Shown: positions 4,640-64,000, counted from the first letter of the stretch. The stretch is DNA of 64,000 nucleotides from Deltaproteobacteria bacterium (GCA_947484175.1 CANKOI010000004.1:1-64000), one strand, 5' to 3'. Made by a program: numbers and translations. Notes: generated by a model from the sequence alone, not told the origin.

Positions 4640-4915
4640 ATGTTCGTTGCCCTCGTCCTCGCCGCCTTCGCGGGGAACCCGCCCGCGCCGGTGTCACCCC
4701 CTGCCGCCGGGGCACCCGCGGCGCCTCCCGCGCCCGTCGTTGCCGAGCCGCCCGCCCCCTGCGGTTCCGTGGTGGTCGTCGCCCCCGCCGTGGTCACGGC
4801 GCCCACCGCGGTCGCTGCGTTCCCCGTCGCGGTGGTTCCCCTCCTCGAGTTACCAGGCGCTTCCAGCGAGAAGTGCTCCGTGCCGCCCCCTTCCCCCGCC
4901 ACGATCAAGCAGTAG
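4640..4915 (+). CDS. Small Ala/Pro/Val-rich secreted peptide, hypothetical
   Basis: 91 residues starting MFVALVLAAFAG, which resembles a short signal peptide. An Ala/Pro stretch and a Val/Ala-rich stretch follow. Two cysteines (in PAPCGS and EKCSV) could pair. The reading frame extends upstream to 4487, but the signal-like start at 4640 is more sensible. Low complexity and high GC mean this could be a chance open frame. It diverges from the secreted protein at 3348-4472. Confidence 0.35.
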   Translation: MFVALVLAAFAGNPPAPVSPPAAGAPAAPPAPVVAEPPAPCGSVVVVAPAVVTAPTAVAAFPVAVVPLLELPGASSEKCSVPPPSPATIKQ

Positions 4916-52563: not shown

Positions 52564-55500
52564 ATGCCGATCCGCCCGCCGAATCTGGACGACCGCCGCT
52601 ACGAAGACCTCCTTCGCGAAGCCCGCGCCCTGATCCCCCAATACACGCCGGAGTGGACCAACCTCTCCGATGCCGACCCCGGCATGACCCTCGTCCAGCT
52701 GTTCGCGTGGATGACCGAGATGGTCATCTTCCGGCTGAATCAGGTGCCGGACAAGACCTACATCCACTTCCTCAACTTCATCGGTGAGGAGCGGAAACCG
52801 GCCCGCCCGGCTGCGGCGCCGCTCACCCTGACCCTCCGGGGAGAAGGCGGCATCGATCTTCCTCCCTATGCCCGGTGCGCCACCCGCCAACGCGAAGACA
52901 GCACCGCAGTGGACTTCGTCACGGTCGACGGCTTGTCGGTGCACGGCGCCACGATCACCCGCGTGATGGCCGTGCGCGGGGGTCAACGTCCCGCCGTTCG
53001 CGAGATCCCCTACACCTACCTGCGCGACAATCCGTCGGCGCTCCTCTTCGGCGGGGGCCGCGGTGTCGACGTCTTCGATCTCGATCCGGTGGATTACGGT
53101 CCCGAGGCGTACACTCCCGACCAGTTCCTGTACGTCAGTCACGAGGACCTGCGGCTCATGGACATTGAGGCCGACGGCGAGCGCCCGCTGGGTCGGCTCC
53201 GGCTGAGGCGCGGGGGCACTAGCGGCGACAACTTGAGCGTGGCCGCCTTCTTCCAGTGGGAGTACCCATCCGCCGAGGGCTGGTTGCCGGTGGCGATGGA
53301 CTTGGACCCGGAGGAGAGTCCCGGGTTGCCGGAAAACACGATCGTGACGGCGCTCCCGGGCATCCTCCCCCTAGACCACTTCGGCAACAACGCCGCCTTC
53401 GGGCTGCCCGAGCCCGTCGCGACCGCGAAGTGGTGGCTCCGCGGGCGGCTGGATTTTGAGCGTTGGCTGGCGGGCCGAATGCTTCAGGACCTCGAGATCA
53501 CCTGGCGGGACGACCGCGGCGGCGAGGAGCGCTCGATCAACAACTGGGAAGTCCGAGCCACAGGCCGCACCTTGGAGTTCTTCCTCCAGGACGTGCCACC
53601 GATCCGGGGCGGCTGGGTGTTGCGATTCGCCCTCGTGGATCGCGGCGTACCTTCTGGGCGTACGAGCTACCTTCCTCGCTATCGCTGGTACTACCGAAGG
53701 GGCGAGGGCTGGGAGGAGGTTCCCAAGGAGAGGGTGCGTACGGACGGCACGGTGGTTCTCCTGACTGGCCCGCTCACCGACATGGCCACCGACGGCTACA
53801 ACCTCCGCGCGGAGCGCATCGAGACGGTGTTCCTTCAGGGTTTCATCCCCGAACTGGAGCTAGATCTCACCTGGGTGCGTCCCATCGAGTTGGCCATGTT
53901 CTGCGGGGACGACCCCCGCCGACTCGAGCCGCTGTTGGTGGACGAAGGGCCGTGGAGCCCCTTCCAGCTCGCCACGATGATGCCGCCCACCATCGGGCGA
54001 AAGTGGTACGTGGGCAGCGACCTCTTCGAGAATCGGAAGCAGGAACCCGTGGTCGTCGAGCTGGACGTCGTGTTCGACATGAACGGTACGGCGATTCCCG
54101 AACCGAGTGAGCTCTACTTGCTGCAGCTCACCTACCGGGCCGAGGACAACTGGCGCGTGGTGTGGTCGGAGAACAAGATCTTCACCAGCTTCACCTTCGC
54201 AGACCTCGATGGCACCAAGGAGCTCGACAAGAAGGCCCGCCCCGTTGGGCCCCGCACCATCACCGTCCTGCTCGACCCAAAAACCCAGCTTAAGGGCCTG
54301 GCCCGGCACGACATCGACGGACGCGAGAGCACCTGGCTCCGCTTCGAGTTGGTGAAGTCCTCCCTCACCGGTCAGGACGAGAAGAAGGAGCAGCACCCAA
54401 TCGTGCCGCGCATCCTCGCCGTCCGACTCGGAGTGCAGAACGGTGTGGGCGCCAAGAGCTACGACCAGCCGCTCCCGGGGCCCCGCATGGCCCAGGTCGA
54501 CGATCGGGCCGAAAACCCCCGCCTGACCCGAGCGATCACCCGAGCCGTGGGGCGCCTCGGAGAGTTCTACCCCTTCTTCCCCTTTGTGGAGCTGAAGGAC
54601 GAGAACCAAGCCCTCTACCTCCAGTTCAGCAAGCCGCTCCCGGCTGGCCGGCGCCACGTGGTGCATGTTCGCACCCGAGGCGAGTCCTTCCTTCCTGAAG
54701 GGGTGGAGGTGCACTGGGAGATGTTGGAAGCTCAGGCCTTCGGTCGTCACGTGTGGCGCCGCCTGCACGGGCCCGGCGAGGGAGCGGCACGCCCCTACCA
54801 ACTCACGCGCACGGGAACCCTCGAGTTCCCCTTGCCCGACCCCCCCGAGGCGGGGCCGGACGGACTCTGGCTCCGTGCCCGCTTCGCCTTGCCGGTGGGC
54901 GCCACCCTCGACATCCTGCCGCAGATGGCGCCCATCACCCACGTGCTGCTGAACACGGTGGAGGTGGTCAACCTGATCACGGTGCGAACGGAACGTTTCT
55001 CGGGCTTGGGCGTGCCGAACCAGACCGTGCAGCTCCGAAACGCACCGGTGTTTCTCCACGACCTCGAGCACGAGCGCAGCCTCTTTGCCCGGCCCGAAAC
55101 CTTTCCCGACATCGTGGTGTACGTGGAAGAGCCCGACGGCGCCGTGGAACCTTGGAGTCGGGTGCCCGACGGGGCGCTGTTGACCGCCAGCAAGGACGAC
55201 CGCATCTTCGTGGTCGATGCCACGGAGGGCACGCTCACGTTCGGCAACGGCATCCGTGGAAGAATGCTGCCCGTGGGCTCCGCGAACGTGGTGGTGGACG
55301 TGTACCGAGCCGTTCCCGGTGCTCGCGGCAACGTGGCGGCGGGCGACATCAACGTGATGGAGGGGTACGCCGACTCGGTAAAGGCGGAGAACCTGCTGCC
55401 GGCCAGCGGGGGGCGCGATGCCGAATCGATCGACGAGATCATCCGCCGCGCGCCGAGCCTGCTCACCAGCCGCGACCGGGCCGTAACGCAGACCGACTTT

Positions 55501-56079
55501 GCGATCATCGCTCAGGAGGCCAGCGGCGAAGTGGCGCGCGCAGCGTGCGACGGCCGGATGGGGCCCGACGGCAAGGTGGTGGTGGTGGTGCTGCCGCGCC
55601 GCCGGGACGGGGAGTCGCTCCCCGACGCGCTGCTCGGCACCGGTCTACGGGACCACGTCCAAGGCTACCTGAAGCGGCGCTGTCTGATCAACGTCACGCC
55701 CGTGGTGCGACTGGCCAGCTTCATGCCGATCGACATCAGCGTGACGTTGCGGCTGCGCCCCAACGCAAACCTGCTGGCGGTGCGCGAGGCGGCCCAGCGG
55801 TGGGTAGAAGCGTTCCTCGACCCCTATGTGGGCGGCTTCGACGGCAGCGGGTGGCCCTTCAAAGGCACCGTGTACAGTCAGGACTTCGCCAGGATGGTAG
55901 CTGACATCCCCGACGTTCGGCACGTCATCGAAGTCCAACTCTTCGACGTGTCGGGGGAGAAGCGGCAACGGGGCGCCCCGGGTTGGGAGGAAGGCGAAGG
56001 GGTGCGCGAGATCGTGCTCACCGAGGCCGACCTGCTCAACGTGCGCCGCGTCCGGGTGAGAACCGAGGACGCCGAATGA
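52564..56079 (+). CDS. Putative baseplate assembly protein (contractile injection system)
   Basis: 1171 residues, matching the TIGR02243-type large baseplate proteins. The N-terminus opens with PNLDDRRYEDLLREARALIPQYTPEWT and GMTLVQLFAWMTEMVIFRLNQ, as in members of extracellular contractile particle clusters. The C-terminal third contains a gpJ-like domain (TFGNGIRGRMLPVGS, then VYRAVPGARGNVAAGDI and SRDRAVTQTDFAIIAQEASG). It would form part of the baseplate wedge. It overlaps the next gene by four bases. No sheath, tube, spike or ATPase gene is in this window. Confidence 0.85.
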   Translation: MPIRPPNLDDRRYEDLLREARALIPQYTPEWTNLSDADPGMTLVQLFAWMTEMVIFRLNQVPDKTYIHFLNFIGEERKPARPAAAPLTLTLRGEGGIDLPPYARCATRQREDSTAVDFVTVDGLSVHGATITRVMAVRGGQRPAVREIPYTYLRDNPSALLFGGGRGVDVFDLDPVDYGPEAYTPDQFLYVSHEDLRLMDIEADGERPLGRLRLRRGGTSGDNLSVAAFFQWEYPSAEGWLPVAMDLDPEESPGLPENTIVTALPGILPLDHFGNNAAFGLPEPVATAKWWLRGRLDFERWLAGRMLQDLEITWRDDRGGEERSINNWEVRATGRTLEFFLQDVPPIRGGWVLRFALVDRGVPSGRTSYLPRYRWYYRRGEGWEEVPKERVRTDGTVVLLTGPLTDMATDGYNLRAERIETVFLQGFIPELELDLTWVRPIELAMFCGDDPRRLEPLLVDEGPWSPFQLATMMPPTIGRKWYVGSDLFENRKQEPVVVELDVVFDMNGTAIPEPSELYLLQLTYRAEDNWRVVWSENKIFTSFTFADLDGTKELDKKARPVGPRTITVLLDPKTQLKGLARHDIDGRESTWLRFELVKSSLTGQDEKKEQHPIVPRILAVRLGVQNGVGAKSYDQPLPGPRMAQVDDRAENPRLTRAITRAVGRLGEFYPFFPFVELKDENQALYLQFSKPLPAGRRHVVHVRTRGESFLPEGVEVHWEMLEAQAFGRHVWRRLHGPGEGAARPYQLTRTGTLEFPLPDPPEAGPDGLWLRARFALPVGATLDILPQMAPITHVLLNTVEVVNLITVRTERFSGLGVPNQTVQLRNAPVFLHDLEHERSLFARPETFPDIVVYVEEPDGAVEPWSRVPDGALLTASKDDRIFVVDATEGTLTFGNGIRGRMLPVGSANVVVDVYRAVPGARGNVAAGDINVMEGYADSVKAENLLPASGGRDAESIDEIIRRAPSLLTSRDRAVTQTDFAIIAQEASGEVARAACDGRMGPDGKVVVVVLPRRRDGESLPDALLGTGLRDHVQGYLKRRCLINVTPVVRLASFMPIDISVTLRLRPNANLLAVREAAQRWVEAFLDPYVGGFDGSGWPFKGTVYSQDFARMVADIPDVRHVIEVQLFDVSGEKRQRGAPGWEEGEGVREIVLTEADLLNVRRVRVRTEDAE

Positions 56080-57164
56080 CCCTCGCGCTCGTGCGTCAGT
56101 CTGGCCCCCGCGGCAGCTCCGACTTCCGTTACCTCGAGGATGTCGTGCGGATCGGGTACCCCGTGCGCGAGGCCCAGACGTACCTGAACCGGCACCTCGG
56201 CAACCCGGTCGGGTATCGGCTCGTCGAAGCGTTGCGGGGCGAGCGGGTCGGCTGTGTGCGGTCCATCGAGGTGCAGACGGCAGCCGGCGGCGAGCCTCTC
56301 TTCGTGCGCTCCACACGGCGCCTTCCCGACGGTTCGCCCGCCAGCCACTACACGCCCGATGAGCTGGTGACGGTGAGCGCGGAGGTGGTGACGCCCGACG
56401 GTCGCCCGCCCGGCGGGCTGGGCGCGCGCGACCGGGTGGTGCTCCATGTGCCGGTGCGCGGGTACCTGCGCTTCCTGCCAGGGCTGTACCAAGGCGCCGT
56501 TCCTGCCCAACGCCGCGACATCGTGCGGGCGGACGAAGCCTCCGCGCGGAACTGGGGGGCCCCGGTGGCCGTGCACTCCACCGAGGTGCAGGCCTTCAAC
56601 GCCGAGGCGCTCCGTCGGTTCCTCGCCATCTTCCAGCACGTGATGACGACCATCACCGACCGGATCGACGGCCTTCCGCAGCTCATCGACCCCATCGCCA
56701 CCGATCCCCGCTTCTTGCCGTGGATCGCTAGCTGGGTGAGCTTTCCGCTCGACAGCTCCCTGCCGATCCACCAACAGCGGGAACTGGTACGGCGAGCGAT
56801 CCGCCTGTACCGCACGCGCGGCACCGTGGCGGGCGTGGAGGAGATGATCCGGGTGCTCACGGCTGCGCCCGTCCGCGTGGCCGAGACCCGGCACCCCAAT
56901 CCCTTCACCCTTGGCCGCAGCACCCTCGCTGGGGGCCGAACCGTCGATGCCCGCTACCTGCGCGGGGAGCCCGCAGGGCACTTCGTAGCCGAACCCGGCC
57001 GGGCGGCCACGTCGTTCTTCGCCTTGGTGCTGGAGCCGGCCAACCAATTCAAGAAACGTTTCGGCGAGCGGGCGCCCGGCGTGCTCCGGCGCATCTCCCA
57101 GATCGTGTCCAGCGAAAAGCCCGGCCACGTGTCCTTCACCATCCTGTTTGACGAGGGTCGGTAG
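56076..57164 (+). CDS. Phage tail protein I-like baseplate protein
   Basis: 362 residues, similar to the TIGR02242 tail-protein domain that commonly follows the large baseplate gene. The core is RGYLRFLPGLYQ, FLAIFQHVMTTITDRIDGLPQLIDP, and WIASWVSFPLD followed by IRLYRTRGTVAGVEEMIRV. These segments are typical of gpI relatives. It overlaps the previous gene by four bases and ends two bases before the next, so all three form one transcript. Confidence 0.82.
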   Translation: MTLALVRQSGPRGSSDFRYLEDVVRIGYPVREAQTYLNRHLGNPVGYRLVEALRGERVGCVRSIEVQTAAGGEPLFVRSTRRLPDGSPASHYTPDELVTVSAEVVTPDGRPPGGLGARDRVVLHVPVRGYLRFLPGLYQGAVPAQRRDIVRADEASARNWGAPVAVHSTEVQAFNAEALRRFLAIFQHVMTTITDRIDGLPQLIDPIATDPRFLPWIASWVSFPLDSSLPIHQQRELVRRAIRLYRTRGTVAGVEEMIRVLTAAPVRVAETRHPNPFTLGRSTLAGGRTVDARYLRGEPAGHFVAEPGRAATSFFALVLEPANQFKKRFGERAPGVLRRISQIVSSEKPGHVSFTILFDEGR

Positions 57165-57166
57165 CC

Positions 57167-58108
57167 GTGCAGCCCAAGAACTTCTTCCAGCTCAGCCGCC
57201 TGCGCGCCTTCGAGGGCCTCTGCCTTACGGCCCGCGACCTCGAGGACGAACAATCCTACCACCGCCGCAACCTGCAGCGACACGTGCTCTACATGCACGG
57301 GCACGGCATCGTGCAGGGCCTCCAGGTGGAGATCGAACAGCGCAAGGACAAATACGTGGCCGTGATCCAGGGCGGCTACGGGGTGACCCGCATCGGTCAG
57401 GGCGTTCTGCTCGCGGACGCGGTGGCCGTTCCGCTGGAGGTGCCCCGTCAGGACGGCGAGTACATGCTGTGGCTCTTCCACGTTGAAGGCGCGGATGAGG
57501 CGGAGCTGCGGGCCATTTTCGACACGGCCGAGCAATCCGCGGCGAGGGTGAAAGAGTCCTGCGCGCCCCGCCTTCACGGAATCGACGAAGATCAGCCCGA
57601 CGCGATCGCGCTCACCCGCATCAACGTGCGCCTCGGTCGCATGGTGCAGGTCCTCTTGCCCGTGCCGCGCGCGGGGCGACAGGCCCGGGCGGCCGAGAGT
57701 TACCTCAAACCACGGGTTTCGGACTTCATCCGCCTGAACAAGAGCGTGGTGCAAAACCTCTTCCGTACCGCCCAGCTCTCAGAGCTCGACTTGGGCGCAC
57801 TGGGGTTCTTCGGCTCCTTGGTGGCCAGCGAATTCCTGCTCATCGAAGAAGGTACCAGCGACCGCGTACTCTACCGCAGCGCGGGCTCCCTGATCGCCTA
57901 CGCCCACGACTTCTACAACCCGCTTCCCCGCTCGCTCGAACGGGTGGAAAAATTCAAGGAGTTCGTGCGCCGGGTGAACGCCGAGGTGCCCGGCGCCGAT
58001 CAGGGCGACGAGATCTGGCTGCGCTGGTTCGACAAGTTTGAGCGCCTGCTGCAGCCGCTCACCAAGATCGCGGAAGAGCTCGAGAAGACGGTGGAAGCGC
58101 AACGATAG
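57167..58108 (+). CDS. Accessory protein of baseplate module
   Basis: 313 residues from a GTG. The first 70 residues show FFQLSRLRAFEGLCLTARDL and HVLYMHGHGIVQGLQVEI, a pattern seen in proteins beside contractile-tail baseplate genes, though their function is unknown. A helical part of about 120 residues follows, then a leucine-rich end (LLQPLTKIAEELEKTVEAQ). It has no signal peptide. Its place after two baseplate genes implies a structural or assembly role. Confidence 0.6.
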   Translation: MQPKNFFQLSRLRAFEGLCLTARDLEDEQSYHRRNLQRHVLYMHGHGIVQGLQVEIEQRKDKYVAVIQGGYGVTRIGQGVLLADAVAVPLEVPRQDGEYMLWLFHVEGADEAELRAIFDTAEQSAARVKESCAPRLHGIDEDQPDAIALTRINVRLGRMVQVLLPVPRAGRQARAAESYLKPRVSDFIRLNKSVVQNLFRTAQLSELDLGALGFFGSLVASEFLLIEEGTSDRVLYRSAGSLIAYAHDFYNPLPRSLERVEKFKEFVRRVNAEVPGADQGDEIWLRWFDKFERLLQPLTKIAEELEKTVEAQR

Positions 58109-60338: not shown

Positions 60339-61385
60339 TCACGAACGAAGAAAGAAGATCACCGCCGGCGCCAGCACCGTGAACACGCAGCCGAGCAGGT
60401 AGACCAGGTGAACGGGACGGACAGCTCCGGTCCGGAGCGCTGTCCACGTCGCAGCACGCGGGTGAGGGGTGCGGGTGAGGTCGCCCAGCGCGCGCGCGCC
60501 GTCATTGTCGAACAGGAAGGGCCACCCCGTGAACCAGGCCACGCCGATGCCAACGTGCACGAAGGCGCGGGGCAGGGCCACGCTCTCGGCGGACACCGCA
60601 GACGCTACCACCGCCGCTACGGCCGCCACGAGCAGGCTCACGGCTGGGCCGGCGAGGGCCACGGCGGCGTGCTGGGCACGCGACCCCAAGTACATGTCGG
60701 TGGTGTCGACATACACCCCACGCAGCCCTACCGCCACGCCGCGCACCTTGCGGCCGAAACCGACGACCGCCACGGCATGCCCCAGCTCATGCAAGACGAG
60801 GTGGACCACGAAGGCGAGGGCGAGGAGCGGCAGCCGGGTAGCGAGCGGCGTGGCATCCACGCGCTGGTCGGCCACTATCGCGTACGCCCCCATCCCCAAG
60901 ATGCCGAGGGGCACCGGCGACTGGTACCAGCTCACAAAGGGGGACAACCCCTTCCAGACGAACGCGGCCACCGCATGCGCGCCCGTCCAAGTGAGCTCCC
61001 GCCTCAGCCACGCCACGTGCGCGAAACGGCGCCGCAGGAAGCCTGCAGGCTCCACCTCCACCAGCCCCGCCTCGCGGAGCGCCTGAATGAAGCCCGAAAC
61101 CCGAGAAACCGGCAAGGAGCCAAAGGTGACGAAGTAGGAAGTGGCGATCTCCGCCACCGTCGCGCGCCCGTCGATCAGGCCCCAGAGGTGCATCTCCTCG
61201 GCCCCGAGCCGCAGGTACACCTTGCCATCGGCGCTGGTGAGCACCCAAGCGCCGTCCACCTCCGTCAGCGACGCGGGCGCCGGCCGAGGCCGCATCTGCA
61301 GCCACGTTTCGCCCGAGTCCAAGCGGCGGACCTCAAAACGGCCGTCCGCGCCGCGCACGACCAATTCGAGAGGTCCCGGCGGCAC
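60339..61385 (-). CDS. PqqD-like domain fused to M50 (site-2) zinc metalloprotease
   Basis: 348 residues from a GTG. Residues about 38-112 have the PqqD/RRE layout: GKVYLRLGAEEMHLWGLIDG, then TVAEIATSYFVTFG and IQALREAGLVEVEP. Such domains hold RiPP leader peptides. The rest has several membrane helices with the M50 motif LVLHELGHAVAVVGFG (His199, Glu200, His203) and DNDGARALGD (293-302) as the second metal site. It is likely an inner-membrane peptidase for the peptide encoded three bases upstream. Confidence 0.82.
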   Translation of the reverse strand: MPPGPLELVVRGADGRFEVRRLDSGETWLQMRPRPAPASLTEVDGAWVLTSADGKVYLRLGAEEMHLWGLIDGRATVAEIATSYFVTFGSLPVSRVSGFIQALREAGLVEVEPAGFLRRRFAHVAWLRRELTWTGAHAVAAFVWKGLSPFVSWYQSPVPLGILGMGAYAIVADQRVDATPLATRLPLLALAFVVHLVLHELGHAVAVVGFGRKVRGVAVGLRGVYVDTTDMYLGSRAQHAAVALAGPAVSLLVAAVAAVVASAVSAESVALPRAFVHVGIGVAWFTGWPFLFDNDGARALGDLTRTPHPRAATWTALRTGAVRPVHLVYLLGCVFTVLAPAVIFFLRS

Positions 61386-61388
61386 GAA

Positions 61389-61622
61389 TCAGGCCAAGTA
61401 CTCGCCGCGAGCAAGAAACTCCGCGTTGAACGCCGCCGAGAACGAGCGAACGCGCTCGGGATCGCCGGTGGCCGACTCGATCGCGGCAACAGTCTCCTCG
61501 TCGAGCTCGTAGCCCTCGGCGAGCAGCGTGCCGCGCACATCGGCCACAAGCGCCGAGCGGAATTCCGCGTCGATAAGCGCGCGGCCAACGATGGTCTGGA
61601 GAACAGAAGGGACAGCGGACAT
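61389..61622 (-). CDS. RiPP-precursor-like peptide (NHLP/Os1348 clan)
   Basis: 77 residues from an ATG with GGAG in a good SD position. The middle (LIDAEFRSALVADVRGTLLA, then EGYELDEETVAAIESA) matches the leader of nitrile-hydratase-like peptide families such as Os1348, in which the leader ends near an EL/EA helix. The tail (RSFSAAFNAEFLARGEYLA) has no cysteine but has Ser, Tyr, Asn and Phe. It lies immediately before the PqqD/M50 gene and after the terpenoid-synthase-fold gene, supporting a maturation locus. Confidence 0.65.
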   Translation of the reverse strand: MSAVPSVLQTIVGRALIDAEFRSALVADVRGTLLAEGYELDEETVAAIESATGDPERVRSFSAAFNAEFLARGEYLA

Positions 61623-61697
61623 CAGCACTCCGGGTTCACAAGGAAGGATCGGCACCCACTATCCCGAGCATAAGGGCTGCGGCCGTCAATTCGCGGA

Positions 61698-62603
61698 TCA
61701 GGACGCAGTGACCGCCGCCAGACGCACCAGCGACACCCGAATCGTCAGGGCTCGGAGTCGGGCCCCGCGCTCCTCAAGGAAGCGGTCGAACTCACGGAGG
61801 CGCAGCTCGGCTGCAGGTGCGCGACAGTCTTCGAGCGCGCGCTCCGCCTCCGCCAGCATGGTTTCGAGGAGTGGGGAAAAGAGCAGCGCCCGCCGCACCT
61901 CCCCCGCTAGGCCCGAAGGCCCGGCCAGAGCTCGCGCGGCAGAAAGCAGGTAGGTGTTGGCGCCGCTGGACAGGTCACGTTCCCACCCGAGTACGTCGTT
62001 GACGCAACCGTAGGAGCGAGCCAGACCGTGCACCAGCGGCCGCACCGCGGCGGCTCCCGTCCAATCCCCGGAGGCCGACATCACCGCGTAGAGCGGGAGC
62101 TCCGCCAGCGCACACTTCCTCGCATGAGCTTCGAAGTCCGCCGCGCTGTATCCGTCCGTGCGAAGCAACTGCCGTCGTTCGGCCTCTGTCTGTTCCGAGA
62201 ACTCCACCCAAGCCCGGCGCGCCTCCTGCGCGAAGCGTCCTTCGGTGTGGCGGTGCCAGAGCGCCATGGCATCCCACAACAGGGCGTTGCCCACTAGGAG
62301 CATCGGCGGGTTTCCGCGTGTTCCGGGCTCGTCGATCACGTTGTCCTGAATGCGCACGTACGCGTACGCCAGCGCAGTGGCATCCAACACATCGGCCATC
62401 ACCTCCGGGGCGACCGGCTGCGGCATCCACAACGGGAGGTGGAGGAGCGGCGCCGCGTCGGCCTGGGTGAAGTACCCGGGACCGGCCCAGGTGAGGAACG
62501 CCGCGCCCTGCTCGCGGAGATGCGGAGGCAGGGAGGCAACCCTCGTCTCTAGGCGACTGAACACCGCTTGCAACGCCGGCCCGTTCTCCTCGTACGTCTT
62601 CAC
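61698..62603 (-). CDS. Class I terpenoid-synthase-fold enzyme, possible prenyltransferase
   Basis: 301 residues from a GTG. It is helical, with two acidic motifs at the positions of a class I terpenoid synthase: RIQDNVID (Asp87, Asp91) and NDVLGWERDLSSGANTYLL (Asn202, Asp203, Glu208, Asp210). The second fits the NSE/DTE or late polyprenyl-synthase site. It has no signal. It sits between a cyclase gene and a RiPP-like precursor. The reaction may be terpene synthesis or prenyl transfer, which the sequence alone does not decide. Confidence 0.6.
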   Translation of the reverse strand: MKTYEENGPALQAVFSRLETRVASLPPHLREQGAAFLTWAGPGYFTQADAAPLLHLPLWMPQPVAPEVMADVLDATALAYAYVRIQDNVIDEPGTRGNPPMLLVGNALLWDAMALWHRHTEGRFAQEARRAWVEFSEQTEAERRQLLRTDGYSAADFEAHARKCALAELPLYAVMSASGDWTGAAAVRPLVHGLARSYGCVNDVLGWERDLSSGANTYLLSAARALAGPSGLAGEVRRALLFSPLLETMLAEAERALEDCRAPAAELRLREFDRFLEERGARLRALTIRVSLVRLAAVTAS

Positions 62604-62612
62604 GGTGTCCCG

Positions 62613-63932
62613 CTAACGCGGGGCCCTGCCTTCGCCGGGCCGCACCACCGCCCAGATCGTGGGAGTGCCGCTCTTGCCCTTCACCTTGACCGGCGGCATG
62701 CGGGCGCAAGGGAACTCGGCCTCAACGGCCGCATGCACCTCGTCGCTGATCACCAAGGAACGGCCGAGGTCGCGGCAAAGGCCTTGCAACCTCGCGGCAA
62801 AGTTCACGGTGTCGCCGATCACGGTGAACTCAATGCGCTCAGCGGTGCCGACGTTTCCGGCGATGACGTCGCCATAGGCGATGCCGATGCCGATACGCAG
62901 CCCCAGCTCCCCGCCCACACCGGCCGCATCCAACTCGCGGACCTTGTCAAGGATCGCCGCGGCAGATCGGACTGCGTCGCCACAGGCGTCAGGGAGCTGG
63001 CGAGGAACACCAAACACGGCCATCAACCCATCGCCAAGGAACTTGTCGAGGGTGCCGCCGTGCGCGAAAACGAGCGGCACGATCGCGCCGAACACGGTGT
63101 TCAGAAAGTCCACCACCGCCTCGGGCCTCTCGGCCTCCGAGCGGCGTGTGAAGTCGCGGATGTCCACGAACATCACGGCGGCACGGCGGCGTCGGCCCCC
63201 CAGCCCCATCGCCTCCGGGTTGTCCGCCACGTACTGCGCCGTAGCGGCCGAGAGGTACTTCCGAAAGTGCTGCTGCTGGCGCTGGGCCTCCTGTTTCTGC
63301 AACGTTTCGGTGGCCGACTGCGTCCACTGCAGCCGAAGGAGTCGGCCGAGCCCGCCGTACACCAGCCCCAGCACGAACAAGAAGCCCACAATGGTGTACT
63401 GGTCAGGGAGCGACACCATCTCCTTCCCGTACACGGCGTCGTCGGACGGGACGACATCCCCGCGGTCGACGGCGAGCCGTAGGAGAAAGAGCCGTTGCGC
63501 GGCGGCAAGCGCCCCCGCGAGCACGCTCACGCCGAAGTTCCCACCGAGGGCCGCGAGGAACATCACCATCGGGTAGAGCGCCACGAGAAGCGGCGCCAAC
63601 AGCATCTCGTAGGCGCCGCTATAGTTGAGGTAGCTGCCTGCCGCGAACGCAGTGACGAACGAAACGTCCACCACCGCGCTCACCCACTTCGACCAGCGTG
63701 GCGCCGCCCCGGCGCGAGTGCGAAAGAAGACAAACGCCGCCCACGCGGTGAAGACCGCAGTGGTCGCCGAGACGAACGTGAGATTCGCGCTGCTGTTGCT
63801 CTCCCAGTTGCCCGCGATCGTCAGCATGCCCAGCACGCAGAACACCAGCCGTAGCTGGGAGGCGATGTGTTCGAATCGGGCCGCGTCGGCCGCCACCAGC
63901 TCGACGATACGCTCGGGGGCGGGGGGCTTCAT
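62613..63932 (-). CDS. Membrane class III adenylate/guanylate cyclase
   Basis: 439 residues. The N-terminal 225 have about six membrane helices. The C-terminal cyclase domain (from about 250) has FVDIRDFTRRS with the metal aspartate, KFLGDGLMAVFG, GIGIAYGDVIAGNVG, and VIGDTVNFAARLQGL. All catalytic residues appear present, so it should make cAMP or cGMP. It is first in the operon with the terpenoid-synthase-fold gene (9 bases after). A Crp/Fnr regulator lies at 23278-23970. Confidence 0.9.
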   Translation of the reverse strand: MKPPAPERIVELVAADAARFEHIASQLRLVFCVLGMLTIAGNWESNSSANLTFVSATTAVFTAWAAFVFFRTRAGAAPRWSKWVSAVVDVSFVTAFAAGSYLNYSGAYEMLLAPLLVALYPMVMFLAALGGNFGVSVLAGALAAAQRLFLLRLAVDRGDVVPSDDAVYGKEMVSLPDQYTIVGFLFVLGLVYGGLGRLLRLQWTQSATETLQKQEAQRQQQHFRKYLSAATAQYVADNPEAMGLGGRRRRAAVMFVDIRDFTRRSEAERPEAVVDFLNTVFGAIVPLVFAHGGTLDKFLGDGLMAVFGVPRQLPDACGDAVRSAAAILDKVRELDAAGVGGELGLRIGIGIAYGDVIAGNVGTAERIEFTVIGDTVNFAARLQGLCRDLGRSLVISDEVHAAVEAEFPCARMPPVKVKGKSGTPTIWAVVRPGEGRAPR

Positions 63933-64000
63933 TCGGCCGATGGTACCGCACCGCGAATCTGGTTTGCCAGCGACGTGAATCCTGCCCCCTCGACCTCTGC

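Follow-up and report, generated by a model that had tools for sequence, protein, structure and literature searches.

On balance, the minus-strand locus at 60339-62603 of the window (by which we mean the whole stretch of 64,000 nt that was analysed, Deltaproteobacteria bacterium GCA_947484175.1 CANKOI010000004.1:1-64000) is best explained as a RiPP pathway in which a peptide receives an isoprenoid and is then trimmed by an RRE-M50 protease. The RiPP-like reading of this locus, put forward in a first-pass annotation, survives the computational tests that we ran and is partly supported by them. A precursor, a synthase-like enzyme and, usually, an RRE-M50 protein occur together in several myxobacterial and related lineages, in which an isoprenoid is probably attached and the peptide then trimmed, by a set of parts that has probably not been described before.

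Organization of the locus

The order of transcription, on the minus strand, is nucleotidyl cyclase, isoprenoid-synthase-fold protein, 77-aa peptide and RRE-M50 fusion (Table 1). The last three had been recognized from the start as adjacent genes, with three bases between peptide and protease, and their coordinates are confirmed; nine bases separate the cyclase from the synthase. The supposed three-gene unit has, however, to be enlarged to a run of five genes at the window copy, including the membrane nucleotidyl cyclase and a gene for a 1337-aa kinase/cyclase/AAA/TPR protein (G000:C4:63929-67942; L036:7930-11943) that overlaps the start of the cyclase, and the whole run reads as one operon. 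The first-pass annotation had also named the 'middle gene' as the possible prenyltransferase, whereas the synthase gene lies upstream of the other two. Values of dN/dS were below 0.5 for the peptide, M50 and synthase in every pair tested; all three are genuine genes, kept together as a unit and subject to purifying selection. Elsewhere in the window, positions 52564-58108 hold phage-tail/injection-system-like genes, among them those for a 1171-aa baseplate-wedge-like protein (PHROG 6, E 8.5e-22) and a Tail_P2_I protein (PF09684, 1.5e-12).

Table 1. Features of the locus, in window coordinates.
Feature	Position	Strand	Basis
RRE(PqqD-like)-M50 site-2-protease fusion (predicted), 348 aa, GTG start	60339..61385	-	PF02163, Foldseek
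DNDG motif with distal zinc ligand (D295 invariant)	60498..60509	-	Sequence, alignment of 14 homologues
HELGH zinc motif	60777..60791	-	Sequence; H, E, H invariant in 14 homologues
RRE/PqqD-like domain (predicted), residues about 38-112, LIDGxxTVAEIA	61050..61274	-	AlphaFold, Foldseek, alignment
77-aa Os1348/NHLP-clan precursor peptide (by sequence), ATG start	61389..61622	-	NF038399 E 3.1e-13, 6lk7, dN/dS
C-terminal tail FSAAFNAEFLARGEYLA, residues 61-77, probable core, no Trp/Cys	61392..61442	-	Alignments
Os1348-type leader domain, residues 8-66	61425..61601	-	NF038399 match
GGAG box, 5 nt upstream of peptide ATG	61628-61631	-	Sequence
Class I isoprenoid-synthase-fold protein (probable peptide prenyltransferase), 301 aa, GTG start	61698..62603	-	AlphaFold, Foldseek, profiles
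Second, modified Asp motif NDVLGWERD, residues 202-210	61974..62000	-	D203, D210 invariant in 17 homologues
First Asp-rich motif DNVIDE, residues 87-92	62328..62345	-	D87, D91 invariant in 17 homologues
Membrane class III nucleotidyl cyclase, 439 aa, adjoins synthase upstream	62613..63932	-	PF00211 E 9.2e-22
Ser/Thr kinase-cyclase-AAA-TPR gene, 3' end only in window	63929..64000	-	Continues to G000:C4:67942

The precursor peptide

By sequence comparison, the 77-aa peptide is a precursor of the Os1348/NHLP clan. It scored 49.6 bits against the NCBIfam model NF038399 (NH_RiPP_Os17), above the curated cut-off of 40, and 46.5 bits against PF14407, under the cut-off of 48, while a profile of 17 relatives matched an NHLP leader peptide (8tb1, E 3e-7) as well as the crystal structure of Os1348 (6lk7, E 1.3e-7). 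The Os1348/NHLP-like leader originally read into the 77 residues is borne out by NF038399 and by 6lk7; an HMM match to the leader or RRE families had been made a requirement of that reading, and the match above cut-off was found for the leader. The gene is the sole Os1348-type gene detected in the window's genome.

Between close species, the peptide showed dN/dS values of 0.15-0.45, and the tail is under purifying selection too. The tails are conserved but lineage-specific, following SFSxAFxxxFLxRG[ED]Yxx in most of the window's lineage (f1; the f-labels denote bacterial families, f15 being Polyangium) and terminating in R[KR]AA[SATF] in f4 and f15. Tails that are conserved rather than variable are unusual for the core of a natural product, and count against the explanation that we prefer. 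Trp is absent from 23 of the 24 aligned precursors, the exception being L044, and Cys is confined to three f1 peptides, each of which ends in Cys and one of which has a further, internal Cys; the core-like tail of the window peptide had been described as lacking cysteine, and residues 61-77 indeed contain none. Peptides without Trp, and mostly without Cys, count against prenylation as regards the acceptor. The genes adjoining the precursor encode the synthase-fold and RRE-M50 proteins and, in other lineages, also a squalene-hopene-cyclase-like protein and a methyltransferase.

The RRE-M50 protease

As judged from its model, the protease is an RRE(PqqD-like) domain fused to an M50 site-2 protease. 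Residues H199, E200, H203 and D295 are invariant in 14 homologues, and the HELGH and DNDG motifs are intact and sit in hydrophobic helices. The match to PF02163 (E 1.1e-5) is just under the cut-off for the window copy and above it in the homologue L048. The nearest NCBIfam models are those of the RiPP proteases daptide_HExxH and YydH/LiaK (1.8e-31 for the L048 homologue), and the window protein matched the former (NF041824) with an E value of 2.2e-14 and 53.4 bits, without reaching the curated cut-off of 300. In the AlphaFold model (mean pLDDT 78), the N-terminal domain consists of three strands followed by three helices. The best Foldseek match of the model was the site-2 protease 3b4r from M. 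jannaschii, and further matches comprised the leader-bound RREs TbiB1, PbtF and 6jx3 (a lasso B1 protein) and PqqD (5sxy), whose winged-helix fold the N-terminal domain resembles, with prob 1.0, TM values reaching 0.72 across some 85 residues and E values of 0.02-0.13; across all matches of the model, E ranged from 0.007 to 0.13 and the hits were mutually consistent. The N-terminal domain includes LWxLIDGxxTVAEIA, which we take to be a typical RRE stretch. In the PqqD-M50 fusion first proposed, the intact protease motifs and, through the Foldseek matches, the RRE are upheld, but the HMM for the PqqD-like domain (PF05402) gave only E 0.02 and 15.7 bits, under its cut-off of 23.4.

The isoprenoid-synthase-fold protein

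The synthase gave no convincing match in Pfam or NCBIfam, with none to PF00348, and a single-sequence search of the PDB returned nothing, so that a family profile and a predicted model were needed. The best Foldseek matches of the AlphaFold model (pLDDT 92.9) were GGPP, hexaprenyl and octaprenyl synthases (E down to 5.5e-6, TM up to 0.75); the Trp farnesyltransferase Ord1 was also among the structural matches, and the family profile aligned both Asp motifs with those of polyprenyl synthases. From this modelling we are confident that the protein has the class I isoprenoid-synthase fold. Residues R84, D87, D91, D203 and D210 are invariant in 17 homologues from several bacterial families. Both acidic motifs had been claimed for this protein, and their positions and the fold hold good, but their letters, DNVIDE and NDVLGWERD, are non-canonical. 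The first motif is DN..DE in f1, where the second Asp is replaced by Asn, and DD..D[ED] in the other families; the f1/f15 clade has a second motif like NDVLGWERD, and f4/f7/f13 have one like HQLFTDAIDAERD.

The Asn in place of the second Asp of DDxxD, and the degraded second motif of the window's clade, would suit a non-catalytic, peptide-binding scaffold, with the modification made elsewhere or with proteolysis as the only processing. We consider this very improbable, because D87, D91, D203 and D210 are nevertheless invariant in all 17 homologues, drawn from several families, and because ComQ is active without a regular second motif (PMC10853753).

A chain-elongating polyprenyl diphosphate synthase is not favoured, given the lack of a PF00348 match and of any GGKRxRP-type IPP site among the conserved columns of the synthase alignments. 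In addition, the host genome carries three separate ordinary polyprenyl synthases (PF00348), which make a housekeeping role for the synthase-fold protein unnecessary and, taken with the missing IPP site, favour prenyl transfer to a different acceptor over chain elongation; we regard it as a probable peptide prenyltransferase. Trans-IDS-like peptide prenyltransferases share a Gln ahead of the second Asp motif (PMC13290415). This residue is Gln in f4, f7 and f13 and Gly in f1/f15, the window's clade, where the replacement counts against a trans-IDS-like prenyltransferase.

The same enzyme might instead make a free terpenoid, working as a terpene synthase or as a chain-elongating synthase, the Os1348-type protein acting as a carrier, scaffold or regulator that the M50 protease removes or activates. 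The fold and the first Asp motif are those of diphosphate-using synthases, a class-II-cyclase-like gene is present in f4/f15, where the two enzymes together could produce a free polycyclic terpene, related synthases are found where no peptide was recognized, for example in f17 (rpmH-rnpA-yidC) and f13, and Os1348 itself was crystallized as a dimeric small protein (PMC7726476). We nonetheless think a free terpenoid unlikely, because an RRE fused to the protease suggests that a leader is recognized, as happens in RiPP pathways, because the tail of the peptide is conserved yet varies between lineages, and because a conserved IPP site is lacking.

Conservation of the gene set in the Myxococcota

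Among 379 Myxococcota genomes, many of them drafts with short contigs, 31 were found to carry the synthase family, at 36 places in all, and 48 to carry Os1348-type genes, at 55 places. An Os1348-type peptide adjoins the synthase at 22 of the 36 places (f1 eleven, f4 four, f15 four and f7 three), and an RRE-M50 gene, whole or in part, is present at 19 of these 22, although such counts are not phylogenetically independent. The conservation of the gene neighbourhood across genomes, which had been suggested as a check, is in this way strong. It had also been asked whether homologues of the peptide lie mostly away from M50/PqqD genes; this is true only for the broad family (19 of 55 beside an M50 gene, 22 of 55 beside a synthase), and close relatives of the peptide are nearly all beside the M50 or synthase gene. 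In f7, the peptide and synthase occur without the M50 protease, which counts against the explanation that we prefer.

Four arrangements were seen: in f1 the genes are collinear; in f4 the M50 gene is divergent; in f15 the peptide and cyclase-like genes face the synthase and the M50 gene is divergent; and in f7 the order is synthase-peptide-methyltransferase. Synthase, peptide and M50 protease are linked in three families, in three arrangements; because the counts are not independent, repeated retention is better gauged from the four arrangements. That the genes are unrelated neighbours without a functional unit, for which only the general possibility of shared operons speaks, is scarcely credible in view of a linkage kept through rearrangement at 22 of the 36 synthase places in the 379 genomes. 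The M50 gene is present in 16 of 94 near relatives, and lies beside the peptide except for a decayed copy in G001 and a contig-edge fragment (G037:C214). In the synthase tree, f1 and f15 are placed apart from f4, f7 and f13, the deepest fork being weakly supported; both groups are found with the peptide and protease.

A number of individual loci deserve mention. The decaying copy (L049, G001:C1), in the window's own genus, has kept the kinase and an M50 remnant with two in-frame TAG codons, and has neither synthase nor peptide. At two further synthase places, which gave no Os1348 HMM match, divergent NHLP-like ORFs, below or at HMM thresholds, lie directly downstream of the synthase (L094:6809-7096(+) and L095:6912-7289(-)). 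The distant f17 synthase homologues (L098 and L099) adjoin rpmH-rnpA-yidC-type genes and have no Os1348-type peptide nearby. A scan of genome contigs beyond the Myxococcota, with one pattern only, gave just Myxococcota-type records; the synthase-bearing L156 (CAMAWH010000023.1) is titled Klebsiella pneumoniae, a title that looks wrong, the record apparently being G012:C23, from the window's own family.

Accompanying genes

The 1337-aa protein has Pkinase (3e-32), AAA_16 (6.1e-14) and TPR domains, and matched TIGR03903 TOMM_kin_cyc with an E value of 3.5e-74 and 250 bits, under the curated cut-off of 705.75. A homologue of the nucleotidyl cyclase is found within the cluster in three families (f1, f4 and f15), and a cyclic-nucleotide-binding protein is encoded next to the M50 protease in f4, f15 and two f1 genera. 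A match to encapsulin was rejected, as it reflected only the shared cyclic-nucleotide domain. Membrane or secreted proteins of 541 and 420 aa that follow the M50 protease in some f1 genomes are lineage-specific and were set aside. No exporter was seen in the cluster, which also counts against the preferred explanation.

With the cyclase and the cyclic-nucleotide-binding protein distributed in this way, a large kinase/cyclase preceding the cluster in f1, a peptide strongly conserved throughout and no exporter, the locus could be a signalling device without a secreted product, in which the M50 protease cuts a small regulator by regulated intramembrane proteolysis, the synthase lipidates that regulator and so brings it to the membrane, and the cyclase, cyclic-nucleotide-binding protein and kinase exert control. 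We judge this quite unlikely, since leaders of the NHLP clan, like RREs, are hallmarks of the biosynthesis of RiPPs, and since annotation places TIGR03903-type kinase/cyclase fusions among the partners of RiPP clusters. The signalling and RiPP readings nevertheless overlap, in that a lipidated peptide signal such as ComX would, by analogy, satisfy both.

In f4 and f15, a protein of 570-670 aa encoded beside the peptide (C6) resembles squalene-hopene cyclase (2sqc, E 1.2e-8) and has the conserved motif GIxPDxDxLGLxLQ; the gene is found in no f1 genome. Relatives of C6 in f24 adjoin ORFs of 40-45 aa ending RTVTL(F/Y)(A)G, and their position beside short ORFs with conserved tails independently suggests that C6 acts on peptides. 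These ORFs, whose tails are nearly identical, are at L169:5740-5865, L170:5894-6130, L172:4535-4741 and, as a duplicate pair, L173:4454-4576 and 4685-4807; a histidine kinase is encoded close by in L169 and L172 at least, and the ORFs may belong to a second, different peptide/terpene-cyclase-like system. The Polyangium copies (L087-L092) are flanked by genes for an Rce1-like CAAX-type protease and a GNAT protein, which is suggestive; since synteny extends over the entire Polyangium flank in all four, we did not count these genes as evidence.

Comparison with known systems

The first-pass annotation knew of no described system with such a set, and that statement needs qualifying by the precedent of PalQ/PalX from Paenibacillus alvei, in which an NHLP precursor with the core DNVRRFFW is modified by a Trp prenyltransferase of the IDS superfamily and a histidine kinase is encoded (PMC10853753). 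The PalQ/PalX/PalP system and the present one share an NHLP-type precursor, a short C-terminal core, an isoprenoid-synthase-superfamily enzyme and a kinase gene. However, PalX ends in the prenylated Trp, whereas the Myxococcota tails lack Trp; no RRE-M50 protein is described for the PalQ cluster, and PalP is a histidine kinase rather than a nucleotidyl cyclase/kinase-cyclase module (PMC10853753). The full combination of Os1348-type peptide, RRE-M50 protein and synthase-fold gene was not found in our literature search, which covered few subscription papers.

Other systems are alike in part. In ComQ/ComX of Bacillus, a class I isoprenoid-synthase-fold enzyme with a degenerate second Asp motif likewise acts on a small ribosomal peptide, but the residue modified is an internal Trp, and neither an NHLP-type leader nor an RRE-M50 protein is reported (PMC10853753, PMC5331326); the protease that processes ComX is unknown (PMC10853753). 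All characterized trans-IDS-like peptide prenyltransferases target Trp, according to a 2026 review (PMC13290415). As outlined in the same review, ChrPC and NctPC (Hubrich et al. 2024) combine prenyltransferase and terpene-cyclase domains, the P domain of ChrPC being trans-IDS-like, and give polycyclic isoprenoid RiPPs. The f4/f15 clusters, with a synthase-fold gene and a squalene-hopene-cyclase-like gene, parallel this pairing of functions on a ribosomal peptide; in that outline, however, the two functions are fused and act on Trp, whereas here they lie in separate genes with peptides lacking Trp, and the window's lineage has no terpene-cyclase gene. Since the fold and precursor type are shared, while the Gln is missing in the window's clade and the Trp nearly everywhere, we describe the system as working like PalQ, ComQ and the ChrPC P domain rather than as a member of their group.

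The Os1348 cluster of Pseudomonas sp. Os17 has the same precursor family (NF038399, structure 6lk7), but the genes around the precursor encode an acetyltransferase, an HEXXH protein and a SagB-type dehydrogenase, and include neither a synthase-fold gene nor an RRE-M50 gene (PMC7726476). The daptide and YydH/LiaK epipeptide proteases (NF041824 and NF058609) are, similarly, intramembrane M50 proteins encoded with a RiPP precursor; the window protein falls far below the cut-offs of these models, and the precursors and modifying enzymes are different.

Proposed mechanism and significance

In the pathway that we favour, the folded helical leader of the 77-aa peptide would bind both the RRE and the synthase, leaving the tail as the probable core. 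The synthase would act as a trans-IDS-like prenyltransferase, taking an allylic diphosphate made by the host's ordinary polyprenyl synthases and modifying a putative acceptor residue in the tail; in f4 and f15, the separate C6 protein would probably then cyclize the attached chain. The lipid may draw the precursor to the membrane, where the RRE of the M50 protein would dock the leader and the site-2-protease domain would cut the membrane-associated precursor, freeing the modified tail as the presumed product. The membrane nucleotidyl cyclase and the cyclic-nucleotide-binding protein may control or sense the system.

More tentatively, we suggest that these clusters could represent an undescribed class of terpenoid RiPP in the Myxococcota, characterized by prenylation at a site that is neither Trp nor Cys, a separately encoded class II cyclase in some lineages, an RRE-guided intramembrane protease and control by cyclic nucleotides. 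If this is true, the chemistry of peptide prenylation by the IDS fold would extend beyond Trp, and the fusion of a leader-docking domain to an intramembrane protease would explain how a lipid-bearing precursor is trimmed within the membrane. The presence of the full set in named Polyangium genomes makes mass spectrometry and gene removals possible in an isolate.
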